Source: Acidobacteriota bacterium
Lineage (GTDB): Bacteria > Acidobacteriota > Terriglobia > Terriglobales > Acidobacteriaceae
DNA: 64,000 nucleotides
NCBI GenBank assembly: GCA_021780075.1
Contig: JAJXZL010000036.1
Span: 146,717 to 210,716, forward strand
Direction: 5' to 3'
The stretch's first letter is position 1. Each line of letters starts with the position of its first letter. Position numbers and translations under genes: made by a program. Below, piece by piece: positions 46,144-54,074 of the stretch. Below the pieces are notes generated by a model that worked only from the letters and a program-made list of their open reading frames with translations, did not search any database and had not been told where the DNA came from.

Positions 46144-47640
46144 CTATTGGATACCCAGGTCAGAGAGCACCTTGGGTTTCGACTCATCCACAGACAGCAG
46201 GTTGTGGCAGACCGCACAATCCTGCGGAATGGAGGCACCATCCTTGGCCGTATGGTCGCCGTCGTGACAGCGGAAGCAGCCCGGATAGCTCATATGTCCG
46301 ATGTGATTGGGATGCGTTCCCCAGGTCACCTTCATATCCGGAAACACGTTCTCACTGTAGAGGGTCACGAGTTGTTTACCCGCGGCCTGCACCAGGTCGG
46401 CCTTCGTGGCCAGCACTTCAGGGTTGCTGCTGCGATAGAAGGCCTCAAGCTGCGCGGGAATTTTTGCATTCGCGTCAGCCTGGCTGGCATAACTGGCCTT
46501 CAGCAGCACCAGGCCTTCCTTGTGGATCCAGGGCAGCGACGGGCTCACCGCACCAACGGCCATGGCCTGATTGATTGCCTCCTCGGCGGTCACAAAGGTG
46601 TGCGCGGCGCGGTTGTGGCAATCGATGCAGTCCATCAACCGACGCTGGCCCTGCGGAACGGCACCATTCAGCGAGGATGCTGCGAACACGGTCTCAGAAC
46701 CGTCTGCGTTTTGCTTCGCTACCCATGGGATGTTCGTCCGGCTGGTATCGGTTGCGATGTATTCGATGTGGCCCAGATGTACGCCGTGAATGCCGGTCAG
46801 ATGCGAGAGGCCATCGAGCCCGCCCAGGTGGAGCACGATCACGCTCTGCGTTTCTGTGTTCTGCTCGTCGTCGGCAAAGGCGGACTTGACCAGCAGCTTC
46901 TCTCCCACAAACTTGGCGGGCGTGTGGCATCCCTCGCAGATTATGCGCGCCGGACGCAGATTCATTACGGGCGAAGGAATCGGCGTGGGATACCGTTTGA
47001 ACGCGACCTCCACCAACTGCTTGGTGCCGTCCACCTTGGCGGCAAAGTACGACTCCGCGCCCGAGCCGATGTGGCAGTCAACGCAGGTCACATGCGAGTG
47101 CGGAGAGATCTTGTAGGCCGTGTACTCCGGCTGCATCACATGGCAGGAAGCCCCGCAGAACTGCGGCGAATCCATGTAGGCCGCTCCGCGATAACTCGCC
47201 ATGGACACCACCACGAAGTTGATGATGGTGGCGACCAGCACGATATCGACGCCGTGGCGGAAAATCCGGTCGTTGAAATCAACCTTGGGATAGACCGCGG
47301 GAATCTTACCGGCCTTCTGCAACGCCCTGTGGCGCACATAGATGCCTACAGGAATCAGCGCCAGTCCCAGCACGAACAAGGCGGGCAGGATCAGATTAAA
47401 AATGATTCCCAGATATGGATTATTATTGGGCCGGGCAAACACCTCCATCAGCCAATTGCCGATCATGGTCACGCCAGCAGCGGTCGTGATGGCGCCGCCG
47501 GCCAGGCTGATGGGATTGTTGCCGAAAAATAGTGCAGGCCGTACCCAGTGCTCGCGGAACCTCAAACTCAGGAATATTGGCACGTCGCCCTCAGGTCGTG
47601 AGTAAGTGGCCCGCCGAGAACGGCGGGCCGAAGAAAGCAT
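46144..47640 (-). CDS. NapC/NirT-family multiheme c-type cytochrome (membrane quinol dehydrogenase-like)
   Basis: TM segments then FCGASCHVMQPEYTAYKISPHSHVTCVDCHIGSGAESYFAAKVDGTKQL; five CXXCH plus one CXXXCH. Confidence 0.88.
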   Translation of the reverse strand: MLSSARRSRRATYSRPEGDVPIFLSLRFREHWVRPALFFGNNPISLAGGAITTAAGVTMIGNWLMEVFARPNNNPYLGIIFNLILPALFVLGLALIPVGIYVRHRALQKAGKIPAVYPKVDFNDRIFRHGVDIVLVATIINFVVVSMASYRGAAYMDSPQFCGASCHVMQPEYTAYKISPHSHVTCVDCHIGSGAESYFAAKVDGTKQLVEVAFKRYPTPIPSPVMNLRPARIICEGCHTPAKFVGEKLLVKSAFADDEQNTETQSVIVLHLGGLDGLSHLTGIHGVHLGHIEYIATDTSRTNIPWVAKQNADGSETVFAASSLNGAVPQGQRRLMDCIDCHNRAAHTFVTAEEAINQAMAVGAVSPSLPWIHKEGLVLLKASYASQADANAKIPAQLEAFYRSSNPEVLATKADLVQAAGKQLVTLYSENVFPDMKVTWGTHPNHIGHMSYPGCFRCHDGDHTAKDGASIPQDCAVCHNLLSVDESKPKVLSDLGIQ

Positions 47641-47641
47641 C

Positions 47642-47962
47642 CTACTTCAAGCCGCGGAAATAGACCACCGCATCCTTGATCTGTGCATCGGTCAGCTTAC
47701 CCTTGAAAGCCGGCATCTTGGCCTTGCCATCTGTGGTGGCCTTGATCATCTCGGCCTCAGTCAGCTTCTTCATTTCAGGACTGGCGAGCGGCACCACCTT
47801 CATCATCTTGGCCGCCGGTGTGTCCGCCGCGCCCTTGGCGCCATGGCACATCTGGCACTTCGCCTTATACGTCGCCTCGCCCGAAGATTGGGCGAAGCTC
47901 ATGGAACCGGCCAGACATACTGCAGCAGCCAGCACCGCCAGGGATCGAATCGTTTTCGTCAT
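47642..47962 (-). CDS. Small periplasmic cytochrome c (monoheme)
   Basis: Signal peptide; YKAKCQMCHGAKGAADTPAAKMM. Confidence 0.93.
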   Translation of the reverse strand: MTKTIRSLAVLAAAVCLAGSMSFAQSSGEATYKAKCQMCHGAKGAADTPAAKMMKVVPLASPEMKKLTEAEMIKATTDGKAKMPAFKGKLTDAQIKDAVVYFRGLK

Positions 47963-48156
47963 TGCATGACTCCTTCGAAATCTTCCACGGCCAGGTTGCC
48001 TACGGGCGTTCCCGCCATGAAACTTCCACTACACAGTTGAACCCCAACGGCGCAGATGAGTCGCCGGGATTGGATTTTTAAAGTACAGGTGACCTGTCAC
48101 GCGGGACCGGCGCAATCCCCCATCGCGCACGGGAACTGGGCCGGTCATGCCTCGCA

Positions 48157-48480
48157 CTATTTCAAAAATGTGCGAAAGTAGGATACCGCGCTGTTGATCT
48201 GCACGTCGGTCAGCTTGCCCTTGTACGGTTGCATTTTGCCCATGCCGTTGCGAACGGCCTCAACCATCTTCGCCTCGGTGAATCCCTTCACCTCAGGATC
48301 GGTAATCGGCTTCACCTTCATTGCTTTGGCCGCCGGGGTTTCTGCTAATCCCTTTGCGCCATGGCACATCTGGCACTTGGACTTGTACAGCGCTTCGCCG
48401 GAAGACTGGGCAAAGCCCACAGCGCCTGCCAAAAGGATGGTTGCTACCAGCGCTACATGGAATCGAATCTTCTTGCTCAT
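48157..48480 (-). CDS. Small periplasmic cytochrome c (monoheme), paralogue of 47642-47962
   Basis: YKSKCQMCHGAKGLAETPAAKAMKV. Confidence 0.93.
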   Translation of the reverse strand: MSKKIRFHVALVATILLAGAVGFAQSSGEALYKSKCQMCHGAKGLAETPAAKAMKVKPITDPEVKGFTEAKMVEAVRNGMGKMQPYKGKLTDVQINSAVSYFRTFLK

Positions 48481-48610
48481 GGTGATGCTCCTGAATAATC
48501 TCCGCGCCCTTCGGACGCCCGCAGGCGCTTCAGGACGTGTCCGGCGGCCCCAAGAAAATCCTTGTTGGCGCCGGTTGCTCCGGATCGACATTCCTTGTCC
48601 TCGAACGATT

Positions 48611-48637
48611 TCACCCCTTCTTCAAAAGAAGGGGTGA
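48611..48637. terminator. Perfect 12-bp hairpin TCACCCCTTCTT-CAA-AAGAAGGGGTGA between porin and cytochrome genes
   Basis: Long perfect stem, short loop, within intra-cluster spacer; no U-tract. Confidence 0.5.
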
Positions 48638-48697
48638 GATCGTAAAACCCCCGAATTCCGTTCGCCACTAAAATCTTCAGCGTGGCGGCGGTCTCGG

Positions 48698-51307
48698 TTA
48701 GAACTCGTAATGCACTGCAAGAGTCACATTATTCGCATGGAAGTTCCGCGGCGCGGTCAGTCCGGAAGGCGATTCCGTAAGACCGGTCGGGCCAGTTAAA
48801 GTTGAGGATGTGCATGGAACAACCGTTGCCGTATACGACACTGAAGTGCTGCAGTACGGCGAGCCGGAAGGACCGCCCTCGCCGTAGCCGTAGAAGTTGT
48901 ATTCCGCTCTCCAAGTCAATCCCGGATGAATCGTCCATGCGAGATTCAAATAGGGGGACTGATACGTAGACGCCAGAGAGCCAAGTACGCCTCGCGCGTC
49001 GTTGAAGAACTGGCTGCCGTTCACCGAGCTGATGCGATAGCCAATATTGGAGTGAACGGATTTGACAGGAGACAGACTGAGAGCCACCGATCCATATTGC
49101 GTGGGGGCATCCATGAAGTCCCTGGCGATAAAGTCCACGAGATTGGTCGTTCCTCTGCCGAATACGCCAGGGCAGATATTCGGTGCGCCGCTGCTTGTGA
49201 GGGTGGCAGTCCCCGGATACCCAGGACCTGCAGCGCCGCTCGTGTAGCAGATGTTGGTTGCTGTGTACACATCGCTAAAGGAGTAATTGAAATCGAGCCC
49301 ATAGCGATCATTCGGGAACAGCGCCGCGCCCAGGCTTGCAACCCGGCTGTGATCCACGTGATCGATCGGCATGATGTACGCAGCAGCGCCCGATGCAACA
49401 TCTGCCTGGTTGTTGTTGGTGTTGTTGTGGCGTTCCAGGTCGTTGAATGCGCCTGACAACGTCGCCCAGGGCCTCGGCCTGTACCTGGTATGCACTCTGT
49501 AGTGCCTCGTCTGGCGCGGAGTAAGCGGGGTGAACGCGTTGTCGTTGTAGAGCACCTCGGCCGTACCATTGAGATCCCAGTTGTTCGTGGGCCGCAGAGC
49601 GGCGTTGAAGATGCCGCCGCTTTCATTGATTGTGACGGTGCCGTGGAATGGGTCAGTCGACGTATCCACTGTACCGGTGTGCGGCACGCCCTCACCGATT
49701 TTGTGCGTACCGTAGCGATAGGTGAGCGCGAACGTTGCACGTGACGCAGCATCCCAGGTCGCCGTGAGGTTATTGGTCAGGAATGACTGGCCAAAGTAGT
49801 TATAGGTGAGAACACCGTTGATGCCATGCGGAAGTGACTGGGCATGTCCAACGGTCAGCGGTCCGGAGTAATTGATGGTTTCATTCGGCGCACCCGGCGT
49901 AGACCAGGTAGTTGCCTGCGGAAGGTCGGAATATCCCGGTTGCTGGACGCTGGAGTAGTTCACCTGGTCAGTGAGGCTGAAGGCTTTGGCTAACTGCCAG
50001 ACGATCCCGTAATCGGCAGCGACCACCGCCCGATGCCCCTTGCCGAAGCCGTTATATTGAAGCGCGCGTATGGCTCCGGTCTTGCCCGTCATCAGCCCCT
50101 GAAAATTCTCAGAGTAGTTGGGCATGTCCATGTTCGCGAGGGTATAGCGAAAATCGCCATTCATCGAGACGTTCTTGATGCTTGAGCTTTGCAGCCGCAA
50201 GATCTCGGTCGGAAAGAGAACCCGCGTCGGCTGTGTGCGCATATAGCTGGTCATGACGGAGCACGCCGGGTTGATGACCGGCATGCCGCCCGGAGTCTGC
50301 GGAGCCGAGAGCAGCGGAAGACCGCCCATGCTGGCTGCGTTGCAGGCACCGAGGCCGTAGGGATTCTGGCTGTCCCAGCCGCCAAGATACACGGGCGTTC
50401 CATCCGCCTCCTGCACCATAAAGCTGTTCGGGTTCAGCGTGAAATAGGAGTCCGCTTTGTAATGGGTGATCTGCTCTTCAAACGTGAGCTTGGTGCCGTC
50501 TACAGGCTTCCAATCGAGCGCGCCCAGGAAAAAGTCATTGCTGTTGCGCTGAAATTGCTGGAGCACTGTGTCGTAACTGAAGACTCCGTAACCTCCCGGG
50601 CTAAGCGTCGGGCCCTGGAAGATATTCTGCGAGTATCCGAAACGATAAGTCACCTTCGAGAGCGGATAGATTGTCAGGTTGGTGTCCGTCATGCGGCGCA
50701 CCGTGTTGAACAGCACAGGCGATTGGTTGAGCTCCGGCCATGCGAGCGCACCCGTGGGCGAGCCGGTGGGCCCGATTGGAATCGACTTGCCGGGAACAAT
50801 ATTCGGATTGCCCAGCAGGTCGTAGTCGAAGTACTGGCGGTCGCGCCGGAAGAGTCCCGAGAACTCGTAGACCTTATCCTTGGAGACATCCAGCTTGGCA
50901 AAGTTGTTGGGATCGCCGCCGAATCCGTTGCCGATGGCACTGAGGTCATCGACAAGGGTGTGCTTTTTGCCCGGCAGCGCATGCATTGCAAAGGTTTGGC
51001 CAAGCACGCGGGGCCCGGATTGCATGTTGACCAGCGTGCTGTACATGGCTGGACTACCCGAGAGACCTACCATGTGCCCACCGAGGTCCACTGTCTGATG
51101 GGATGAATACCCATCCGGGGTTGTCATCGGTGTCGTCTGCGTTGGAATTTGGGCAGCCGATGTGCCCGTCATGATGATAAGTAAAATGGCTACTGCAATG
51201 CTCCCGGAGATCCACTGGATCTTTGCGAGAGAGGGCTGTTGATTGGACAGCCAAGAAAACCAGCCTAACCTCTTCATATGAAGCCTCGCTCGAAAAATGT
51301 TGCTCAC
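48698..51307 (-). CDS. MtrB/PioB-like outer-membrane beta-barrel associated with decaheme cytochrome
   Basis: 869 aa; signal anchor; NGFGGDPNNFAKLDVSKDKVYEFSGLFRRDRQYFDYDLLGNPNI; alternating beta-strands, C-terminal FHANNVTLAVHYEF (terminal F); adjacent to decaheme cytochrome gene. Confidence 0.78.
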   Translation of the reverse strand: MSNIFRARLHMKRLGWFSWLSNQQPSLAKIQWISGSIAVAILLIIMTGTSAAQIPTQTTPMTTPDGYSSHQTVDLGGHMVGLSGSPAMYSTLVNMQSGPRVLGQTFAMHALPGKKHTLVDDLSAIGNGFGGDPNNFAKLDVSKDKVYEFSGLFRRDRQYFDYDLLGNPNIVPGKSIPIGPTGSPTGALAWPELNQSPVLFNTVRRMTDTNLTIYPLSKVTYRFGYSQNIFQGPTLSPGGYGVFSYDTVLQQFQRNSNDFFLGALDWKPVDGTKLTFEEQITHYKADSYFTLNPNSFMVQEADGTPVYLGGWDSQNPYGLGACNAASMGGLPLLSAPQTPGGMPVINPACSVMTSYMRTQPTRVLFPTEILRLQSSSIKNVSMNGDFRYTLANMDMPNYSENFQGLMTGKTGAIRALQYNGFGKGHRAVVAADYGIVWQLAKAFSLTDQVNYSSVQQPGYSDLPQATTWSTPGAPNETINYSGPLTVGHAQSLPHGINGVLTYNYFGQSFLTNNLTATWDAASRATFALTYRYGTHKIGEGVPHTGTVDTSTDPFHGTVTINESGGIFNAALRPTNNWDLNGTAEVLYNDNAFTPLTPRQTRHYRVHTRYRPRPWATLSGAFNDLERHNNTNNNQADVASGAAAYIMPIDHVDHSRVASLGAALFPNDRYGLDFNYSFSDVYTATNICYTSGAAGPGYPGTATLTSSGAPNICPGVFGRGTTNLVDFIARDFMDAPTQYGSVALSLSPVKSVHSNIGYRISSVNGSQFFNDARGVLGSLASTYQSPYLNLAWTIHPGLTWRAEYNFYGYGEGGPSGSPYCSTSVSYTATVVPCTSSTLTGPTGLTESPSGLTAPRNFHANNVTLAVHYEF

Positions 51308-51390
51308 ATCGAATTCCTGAACCCGTGTGCGGAGTTAATTCAAAAACTCGGCCGCGCCGTCCATTGACAGGAGAGGCGCGGCGCAGCGCA

Positions 51391-52335
51391 TCACCTGACG
51401 AATGCCTGACTGAGGTTCGATCCGTGAATCATCGTGTGGCAGGCGATACACGGTGTCGAACTCGCCGATCCCTGGCCCATCCCGTGAACCGCGCCTTCAG
51501 CAACGGGGCTGTGGCACTGGTTGCACAACGTGGTAATGCTCGGCATGTTCAGCAGTCGGGCGTTCTGAGAACCGTGCGGCGTATGGCATGCCATGCATCC
51601 CTCTGCCTTGACTGCGGCGTGCTCAAACACGAACGGTCCGCGCGTCTCCATGTGGCACTTGGTGCAGATCATGTTCTGATCAGCCGTGTTTCTCAGGTTG
51701 TTATTCTGGAAGGTTCCGTGAACATCGTGACAGTCGTTGCACTGGATCAGGCCTTCGTTTACCCGGTGGTGAAACGGCATATCGAACGATGGCTTCACGT
51801 CGGTGTGGCACTGATAGCAGAGCTTCGGCTGCGATGCCTTCAGCAGGTGCGCCTGATCTGTACTGGCGTGCACGCTGTGGCAGCCGATGCAACTCACCCC
51901 TCCCTTGGCATGAGGCGAGCGCAGGAAGTCAGGATGCGTGCCCGCGTGGCAGGTCAGGCATTTGGCATCCACGTCCTTTGCCGTAGCCTTGGCGGGATTG
52001 AAGATTTTGCTTGCGTCACCGCCGCCATCCACGTGCGCCTTGCCCGGACCATGACAGCCCTCGCAGGTAACACCGGATTTGCCGTGCATCATGGCAATTT
52101 TGTTGTGCGGATTATTGGCAAACCCCTTTGCCACTTCCTCGTGGCAGGTTGCGCAGGTGTCCTGGCCCACATAGTCGCTGGGGGCCGCTTGTTTGGCCTG
52201 CACATTGGCCTGCTTTGCTCCGCTTGCTGGAGCAGCTATTGCAGTGGCGCAAAGCATGCTCGCGCCCAACAGCAACATCAAACAGACTCGCAGTCCCGGC
52301 AACTTTCCCGGAGCCGCACTTTTTAGCAATCGCAT
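51391..52335 (-). CDS. MtrA/DmsE-like decaheme c-type cytochrome
   Basis: Ten CXXCH motifs (CATCH, CEGCH, CLTCH, CIGCH, CYQCH, CNDCH, CTKCH, CMACH, CNQCH, CIACH), signal peptide. Confidence 0.93.
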   Translation of the reverse strand: MRLLKSAAPGKLPGLRVCLMLLLGASMLCATAIAAPASGAKQANVQAKQAAPSDYVGQDTCATCHEEVAKGFANNPHNKIAMMHGKSGVTCEGCHGPGKAHVDGGGDASKIFNPAKATAKDVDAKCLTCHAGTHPDFLRSPHAKGGVSCIGCHSVHASTDQAHLLKASQPKLCYQCHTDVKPSFDMPFHHRVNEGLIQCNDCHDVHGTFQNNNLRNTADQNMICTKCHMETRGPFVFEHAAVKAEGCMACHTPHGSQNARLLNMPSITTLCNQCHSPVAEGAVHGMGQGSASSTPCIACHTMIHGSNLSQAFVR

Positions 52336-52537: not shown

Positions 52538-52553
52538 GGTGACGTTCATCACA
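52538..52553. promoter_or_regulatory. CRP-like site GGTGA-CGTTCA-TCACA
   Basis: GTGA-N6-TCAC about 200 bp upstream of decaheme cytochrome start. Confidence 0.5.
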
Positions 52554-53152: not shown

Positions 53153-53168
53153 CGTGAGGCCCATCACA
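53153..53168. promoter_or_regulatory. CRP-like site CGTGA-GGCCCA-TCACA
   Basis: GTGA-N6-TCAC about 155 bp upstream of Crp/Fnr-family regulator start. Confidence 0.5.
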
Positions 53169-53321: not shown

Positions 53322-54074
53322 ATGGCGAATACTGGGATTTCCGTAGGAATGCAGAGACGGCAGAAGCAGCAGGCAAGGCAGGCACCGGTTGGGTGCGCAG
53401 CCTGCTCCAACCGCCGCCCTGGCTGGTTTTGCTCTCTGGGCAGTGCGGTTCTTGCCGACCTTGAACTCGCCACAAGCACAATCTCTCTGCCGGCGCAGGC
53501 TTCGCTGTTCACGCAGGGCGAGGATGCCCGTTGCCTTTATCTGATATGCAGTGGATATCTCAAGCTCACCGCTGGTCATCCCCAGGATCGCCAGATGATT
53601 GTGCGCGTGGCTGGTCCCGGCTCCATGTTGGGGCTTTATGCCGTTCTGTCCCATGGGGTTTATGAGGTATCTGCAGAATCGCTGACCACCGCTCAACTGC
53701 GACCAGTGGAACGGGACAGGTTTCTCAATTTCCTGCGCAGCCACAAGGAAGCGCAGATGCGCGCCGTGCAGTGCATCTGCCAGGAGTACCGCTTCGCTTT
53801 GCAGGACGCCTGCCGCATCTCGCTGGCGGAAACCGTGGCGGCCCGGCTGGGACGACTGCTGCTCGAACTGGGTCACCAGATTGGAGAGCATCTGAGCGGC
53901 GGCGAGTTCCGCTTTCCGCTGCTGCTGACCCACGAAGAAATGGCGTCCATGGCCTGTACCACGCGCGAAACCGTCACCCGCACCCTCGGCCAGTTCCGCA
54001 AAGAGGGCTGGATCTCGGTGGAGGGATCGGTCATTACCCTGCACCACCCCGACCGGTTGCAGGCCATCGCTTAG
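53322..54074 (+). CDS. Crp/Fnr family transcriptional regulator with N-terminal cysteines
   Basis: VGCAACSNRRPGWFCSL N-terminus; cNMP-like domain; LTHEEMASMACTTRETVTRTLGQFRKEGWI HTH. Confidence 0.92.
   Translation: MANTGISVGMQRRQKQQARQAPVGCAACSNRRPGWFCSLGSAVLADLELATSTISLPAQASLFTQGEDARCLYLICSGYLKLTAGHPQDRQMIVRVAGPGSMLGLYAVLSHGVYEVSAESLTTAQLRPVERDRFLNFLRSHKEAQMRAVQCICQEYRFALQDACRISLAETVAARLGRLLLELGHQIGEHLSGGEFRFPLLLTHEEMASMACTTRETVTRTLGQFRKEGWISVEGSVITLHHPDRLQAIA

Follow-up and report, generated by a model that had tools for sequence, protein, structure and literature searches.

The 64-kb window analysed here, a stretch of contig C33 in a 99.5% complete genome of 3.88 Mb whose nearest relatives are Acidobacteriaceae MAGs, probably encodes a trans-envelope, redox-regulated pathway for respiration outward to an extracellular acceptor, by way of an ImcH-type protein and an MtrAB-type conduit. 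Positions 46144-52335 of its minus strand hold, in order from 52335 downward, the genes of a decaheme cytochrome, an outer-membrane barrel, two monoheme cytochromes c and a hexaheme membrane cytochrome, all co-directional and all at the coordinates originally predicted for a five-gene block. The predicted total of 18 hemes stands, with seventeen canonical heme motifs and one (CX3CH) that is not. The genes and sites assigned to the system are:

51391..52335, minus strand: periplasmic decaheme cytochrome c of the MtrA/DmsE family, with ten CXXCH motifs and an N-terminal hydrophobic signal segment (TIGR03508, MtrA alignment)
48698..51307, minus strand: MtrB-like outer-membrane barrel, 869 aa, C-terminal Phe (structure model and relatives)
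48157..48480, minus strand: periplasmic monoheme class-I cytochrome c (PF13442, 5.5e-13)
47642..47962, minus strand: second periplasmic monoheme class-I cytochrome c (PF13442, 1e-14)
46144..47640, minus strand: predicted ImcH-type inner-membrane hexaheme quinol oxidase (PF03264, 1.6e-12; CX3CH and five CX2CH)
52538..52553, minus strand: predicted site, Crp/Fnr-type palindrome TGTGATGAACGTCACC, 203 bp upstream of the decaheme ATG
53153..53168, minus strand: predicted site, Crp/Fnr-type palindrome TGTGATGGGCCTCACG, 154 bp upstream of the regulator gene
53322..54074, plus strand: Crp/Fnr-family regulator with N-terminal Cys25-x2-Cys28-x8-Cys37 (PF13545/PF00027)

The decaheme protein is of the MtrA/DmsE type, as had been predicted: it possesses ten CXXCH motifs, reaches 259 bits with TIGR03508, where the cut-off is 192, and aligns throughout with MtrA (6r2q_A, E = 3.5e-35), all ten heme motifs included. 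These ten motifs are invariant among 19 homologues, and a 19-sequence profile matches MtrA of 6R2Q with an E-value of 7.5e-56. Named references for MtrA, PioA and DmsE were sought among plasmids, with distant matches only.

The 869-aa barrel protein had no match in Pfam and NCBIfam scans, PF11854 (MtrB_PioB) included, and a search for PF11854 across the whole genome was likewise without a match; its homology therefore rests on structure and relatives. An AlphaFold2 model built from 22 homologues, of moderate confidence (mean pLDDT 70.6), has about 26 long strands. The barrel prediction did not fail: the top match of the model in a Foldseek search of the PDB is MtrB (6r2q_B, E = 2.1e-13), several orders of magnitude better than the runners-up, which are TonB-dependent receptors with E-values near 1e-8. 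The TM-score against 6r2q_B is moderate (0.51 by query length/0.66; rmsd 9.6), and a profile of the 22 barrels searched against PDB sequences gave chance matches only and did not reach MtrB. A full-length hhalign alignment links the barrel family to another acidobacterial barrel family, of 660-710 aa (probability 100%, E = 1.3e-62), the clusters of which carry MtrC/MtrF-domain decahemes, MtrA and ImcH; at the three loci of this shorter family that were examined, the MtrC/MtrF-domain decaheme (PF22113, 154-170 bits) is encoded in the same cluster. The C-terminal residue of the barrel is Phe, almost invariant among its homologues, and a C-terminal Phe is usual in outer-membrane barrels. The model and the homologues support the presence in the block of a predicted MtrAB-type outer-membrane conduit, in which the decaheme would be seated within the barrel and span the outer membrane.

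The hexaheme protein was predicted to be a six-heme inner-membrane cytochrome of NapC/NirT type; the former description holds, and the simple NapC/NirT assignment gives way to an ImcH signature. The family is described as having three membrane segments, an atypical CX3CH motif and five to nine CX2CH motifs (Zhong and Shi, PMC6295460), and Geothrix fermentans and Acidobacterium capsulatum are listed among its carriers (PMC6295460). In 13 of 13 aligned relatives the N-terminus keeps about three hydrophobic segments, a CX3CH motif follows them directly, and five CX2CH motifs are kept as well; hydropathy of 13 homologues also indicates about three N-terminal membrane segments, of which the first is weak in the window copy. 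Homologues start some 20-25 residues later, and the PF03264 match covers only about 90 residues. By the published family description and a G. fermentans counterpart with 46% identity (L130), the protein fits ImcH, to which it may be assigned. CymA, a tetraheme NapC/NrfH-type protein with one membrane helix, was rejected as an identification because six hemes and several membrane segments are found here. An ImcH homologue in another cluster (L043:12309-13838), which also contains MtrAB and a CbcL-like gene, has seven heme motifs (six CX2CH and one CX3CH), the heme count of Geobacter.

Both of the small proteins predicted to be monoheme carriers match Cytochrome_CBB3/Cytochrom_C. The reading frame of the upstream one can also be read from 48591; its signal peptide begins at the ATG at 48480, which is probably the true start. 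A hairpin with a perfect 12-bp stem and a 3-nt loop (48611-48637, RNA fold z -5.2) lies between the barrel gene and this monoheme gene. It is strong, yet absent as a conserved feature in most relatives, and is perhaps a local attenuator or an mRNA processing site.

Linkage of these genes is conserved well beyond the window. The decaheme gene adjoins the barrel gene in 27 of 28 loci that were chosen solely for encoding the barrel, which argues that the block is not a product of chance. In 38 locus records, among which at least two pairs resemble one contig fetched twice, the genes for the decaheme, the barrel and ImcH all run in one direction inside a span of 7 kb. Relatives of the barrel occur in 140 of 250 genomes of the class, and relatives of ImcH in 111 of the 250. 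Within the family to which the window belongs, ImcH is found in 21 of 26 barrel-positive genomes and the barrel in 21 of 24 ImcH-positive genomes (the other three being counted as without a barrel), a co-occurrence with a Fisher p of about 7e-6 over the genomes listed, which are fewer than a full census. Three Acidobacteriota clusters, two of them titled Acidobacterium sp. (L097, L098 and L099), have an ImcH-type gene beside MtrAB as well as a gene for an 11-heme protein; according to a scan, the L098 cluster encodes a 13-heme CbcL-like protein with cytochrome b561, and 13-heme genes of similar size are present in the L097 and L099 clusters.

The Crp/Fnr-type regulator gene, which the original prediction did not include, is transcribed divergently from the operon. 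In 20 more locus records a divergent orthologue, mostly 81-91% identical, adjoins the decaheme gene. Cys25, Cys28, Cys37, Cys76, Cys151, Cys153 and Cys164 of the regulator are invariant in the aligned set. Its N-terminal cysteines are possibly an Fe-S or redox sensor, and suggest that oxygen or redox state may be what it senses; a point against this is their spacing, which is x2, x8 and differs from the x2, x5 of Escherichia coli FNR. The 21 intergenic regions together contain 38 TGTGA-N6-TCACA sites, counted with no more than one mismatch, where dinucleotide shuffles would lead one to expect 0.46, a ratio that overstates independence because the 21 sequences are related. The usual intergenic pattern is one TGTGA-N6-TCAC site near each of the two divergent genes. 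The regulator and the two conserved TGTGA-N6-TCAC sites belong to the conduit system, and the gene set is probably redox-regulated.

The analysis establishes which genes are present and to which families they belong, the MtrB-like model of the barrel, the conservation of the linkage, and the regulator with its sites; how the complex would assemble, the order and outward direction in which electrons would flow, the acceptor and the signal of the regulator are inferred. ImcH in the inner membrane would oxidise (mena)quinol, and its hemes would hand electrons to the two periplasmic monoheme cytochromes c, which would pass them to the MtrA-type decaheme in the MtrB-like barrel and so to an acceptor outside the cell. 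A high-potential acceptor would be reduced either directly or through a cytochrome encoded elsewhere; under low oxygen, this acceptor would most likely be the Fe(III) of acidic soil, or possibly humics. The Crp/Fnr-type regulator would sense oxygen or redox state and control both itself and the operon through the paired TGTGA-N6-TCAC sites.

Direction and substrate had both been left open by the original prediction; the ImcH-type partner makes direction less so, and the acceptor may be proposed as above. Outward flow is favoured because ImcH has so far been implicated in quinol oxidation only (PMC6295460) and because Geobacter ImcH is required for acceptors above about -0.1 V (PMC6148476), a threshold that would suit Fe(III) at acidic pH. 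Fe(III) reduction under low oxygen is reported for the related Acidobacteriaceae Acidobacterium capsulatum and Acidicapsa species (PMC8790237). A fuller version of the outward reading, which we advance tentatively and at less than even confidence, is a previously unrecognised hybrid pathway in which MtrAB of the Shewanella type is fed by a Geobacter-type ImcH, with a single redox-sensing regulator of the Crp/Fnr type in control. Such a pathway would need no MtrC-type surface cytochrome and would explain Fe(III)/humic reduction by the abundant Acidobacteriaceae of acidic soils.

The lack of an MtrC/OmcA-type surface cytochrome in the cluster counts against outward respiration. Such a cytochrome had been predicted to be missing from the window, and no open reading frame outside the block has more than one heme motif in these 64 kb. 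Without MtrC, contact with soluble or chelated acceptors or with shuttles would fall to the tip of the barrel-decaheme unit itself, unless it used a surface cytochrome encoded elsewhere. A search of the genome for surface cytochromes, as proposed with the prediction, did find four other multiheme proteins; the weak PF22113 matches outside the window are multiheme proteins other than MtrC/OmcA-type surface decahemes. Contig C28 (L072:7106-8464) encodes an 11-heme cytochrome with a C-terminal membrane anchor, 60-68% identical to the product of the 11-heme gene within the MtrAB-ImcH cluster of Acidobacterium/Granulicella MAGs and likely an unlinked member of the same pathway. A nonaheme protein with an N-terminal lipobox (LMSC), encoded on contig C43 (L073:8025-9689), comes from a 9-heme family without known structure and is the best candidate, though a candidate only, for a surface lipoprotein cytochrome; it was left out of the parts of the system because its family occurs patchily (in 12 of the 250 genomes, two of these without the barrel) and its structure model has a pLDDT of 44. 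On contig C49 (L074:8676-11010), a cytochrome b/b6-like gene is followed by that of a nonaheme cytochrome, a pair that is possibly a multiheme variant of the bc complex, and homologues of this nonaheme protein adjoin the conduit in L043, L045 and L118. Contig C14 encodes another nonaheme protein.

Electrons could also travel the other way. The monoheme cytochrome c partners and the four matches to the COX1 family (heme-copper oxidases) in the genome would suit inward flow to oxygen, and MtrA-type conduits are reversible in principle. The gene set parallels mtoAB-cymA-mtoD of Sideroxydans (decaheme, barrel, monoheme c and NapC-type quinone enzyme; PMC10654088), so that a conduit like Mto or Pio might draw electrons from external Fe(II) and send them by way of MtrB/MtrA and monoheme c to terminal oxidases or the quinone pool. 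This is nevertheless unlikely, as the quinone enzyme is of the ImcH type implicated in quinol oxidation only (PMC6295460) and not a tetraheme CymA, no RuBisCO match was found in the genome, and the conserved cysteines of the Crp/Fnr-type regulator suggest redox or low-oxygen control. The retention of several terminal oxidases would accord as well with an overflow or detoxification valve, which would keep the redox balance but not support growth by discharging surplus quinol electrons onto Fe(III), onto humics or onto toxic oxyanions (selenite, for instance); Fe(III) reduction by Acidobacteriaceae has been reported in micro-aerobic, carbon-rich conditions (PMC8790237), and the missing surface cytochrome of the cluster fits a valve too. 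However, between quinol and the outer membrane the chain is conserved as a whole and dedicated, resistance genes were not seen nearby, and a mere valve is quite improbable.

It would be most surprising if the block served extracellular respiration of the DMSO/TMAO type, with DmsEF working alongside DmsAB and the decaheme being DmsE proper. The highest-ranking family name of the decaheme is indeed 'DmsE family' (TIGR03508), which we take to be a broad subfamily that includes MtrA-type proteins. A DMSO reductase partner encoded elsewhere, which had been named as a finding that would overturn the prediction, did not come to light: DmsAB was not found in the genome, where the two molybdopterin matches are NuoG and a solitary CISM protein. 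The latter has a DmsA score of 273, far below the cut-off of 778, and no DmsB/DmsC-like genes were seen beside it.

Decaheme-barrel genes are already known in Acidobacteriota; the pairing with ImcH and the regulator with its operators are new. Homologues of mtrA and mtrB in this phylum were listed by Lipson et al. 2013 (PMC3669403), by Eichorst et al. 2018 (PMC5900883) and in a 2023 survey (PMC10654088), and a likely porin-cytochrome complex in Holophaga was reported in 2020. Eichorst et al. judged acidobacterial genomes to be without complete mtr/omc operons (PMC5900883), and neither their study nor that of Lipson et al. contains an ImcH linkage or a regulator. No report of mtrAB-imcH linkage, of a dedicated regulator or of operators was found in the literature searched, the coverage of which was incomplete. 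Acidic soils and peat harbour Acidobacteriota in abundance, and certain isolates there are Fe(III) reducers; with a conserved and apparently self-contained set of quinol oxidase, carriers, decaheme, barrel and regulator, iron reduction by Acidobacteriaceae becomes a specific, testable genetic hypothesis.

Like MtrCAB/MtrDEF of Shewanella (PDB 6R2Q), the locus has adjacent genes for a decaheme and a large outer-membrane barrel. It differs in that no MtrC is encoded in the cluster, the barrel is longer (869 aa) and unrecognised by PF11854, an ImcH-type partner replaces CymA, and two monoheme carriers and a Crp/Fnr-type regulator of its own are present. The MtoAB-CymA-MtoD system of Sideroxydans and PioABC of Rhodopseudomonas also combine a decaheme and a barrel in an operon without MtrC, with a small carrier alongside (MtoD or PioC). 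Here, by contrast with both, the partner is an ImcH-type hexaheme protein instead of a tetraheme CymA, in a genome without a RuBisCO match, and as read from the sequence the block includes no HiPIP corresponding to PioC. The hexaheme protein resembles ImcH of Geobacter and Geothrix in its approximately three membrane segments, adjoining CX3CH, subsequent CX2CH motifs and length of about 480-500 aa; it has five CX2CH motifs where that of Geobacter has six. Published ImcH loci differ from this one in their surroundings, as mtrAB/mtoAB were never found adjacent to imcH in the published survey (PMC6295460). Further parallels are acidobacterial clusters of the Bryobacter/Solibacter type (L048, L056 and L137), which share the homologous decaheme, barrel and ImcH; two additional components of theirs, a decaheme with MtrC/MtrF domains and a tetraheme cytochrome c chain, are absent from the window. 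Together, the locus and its relatives show that extracellular respiration is built from modules of the inner and the outer membrane that recombine with each other.
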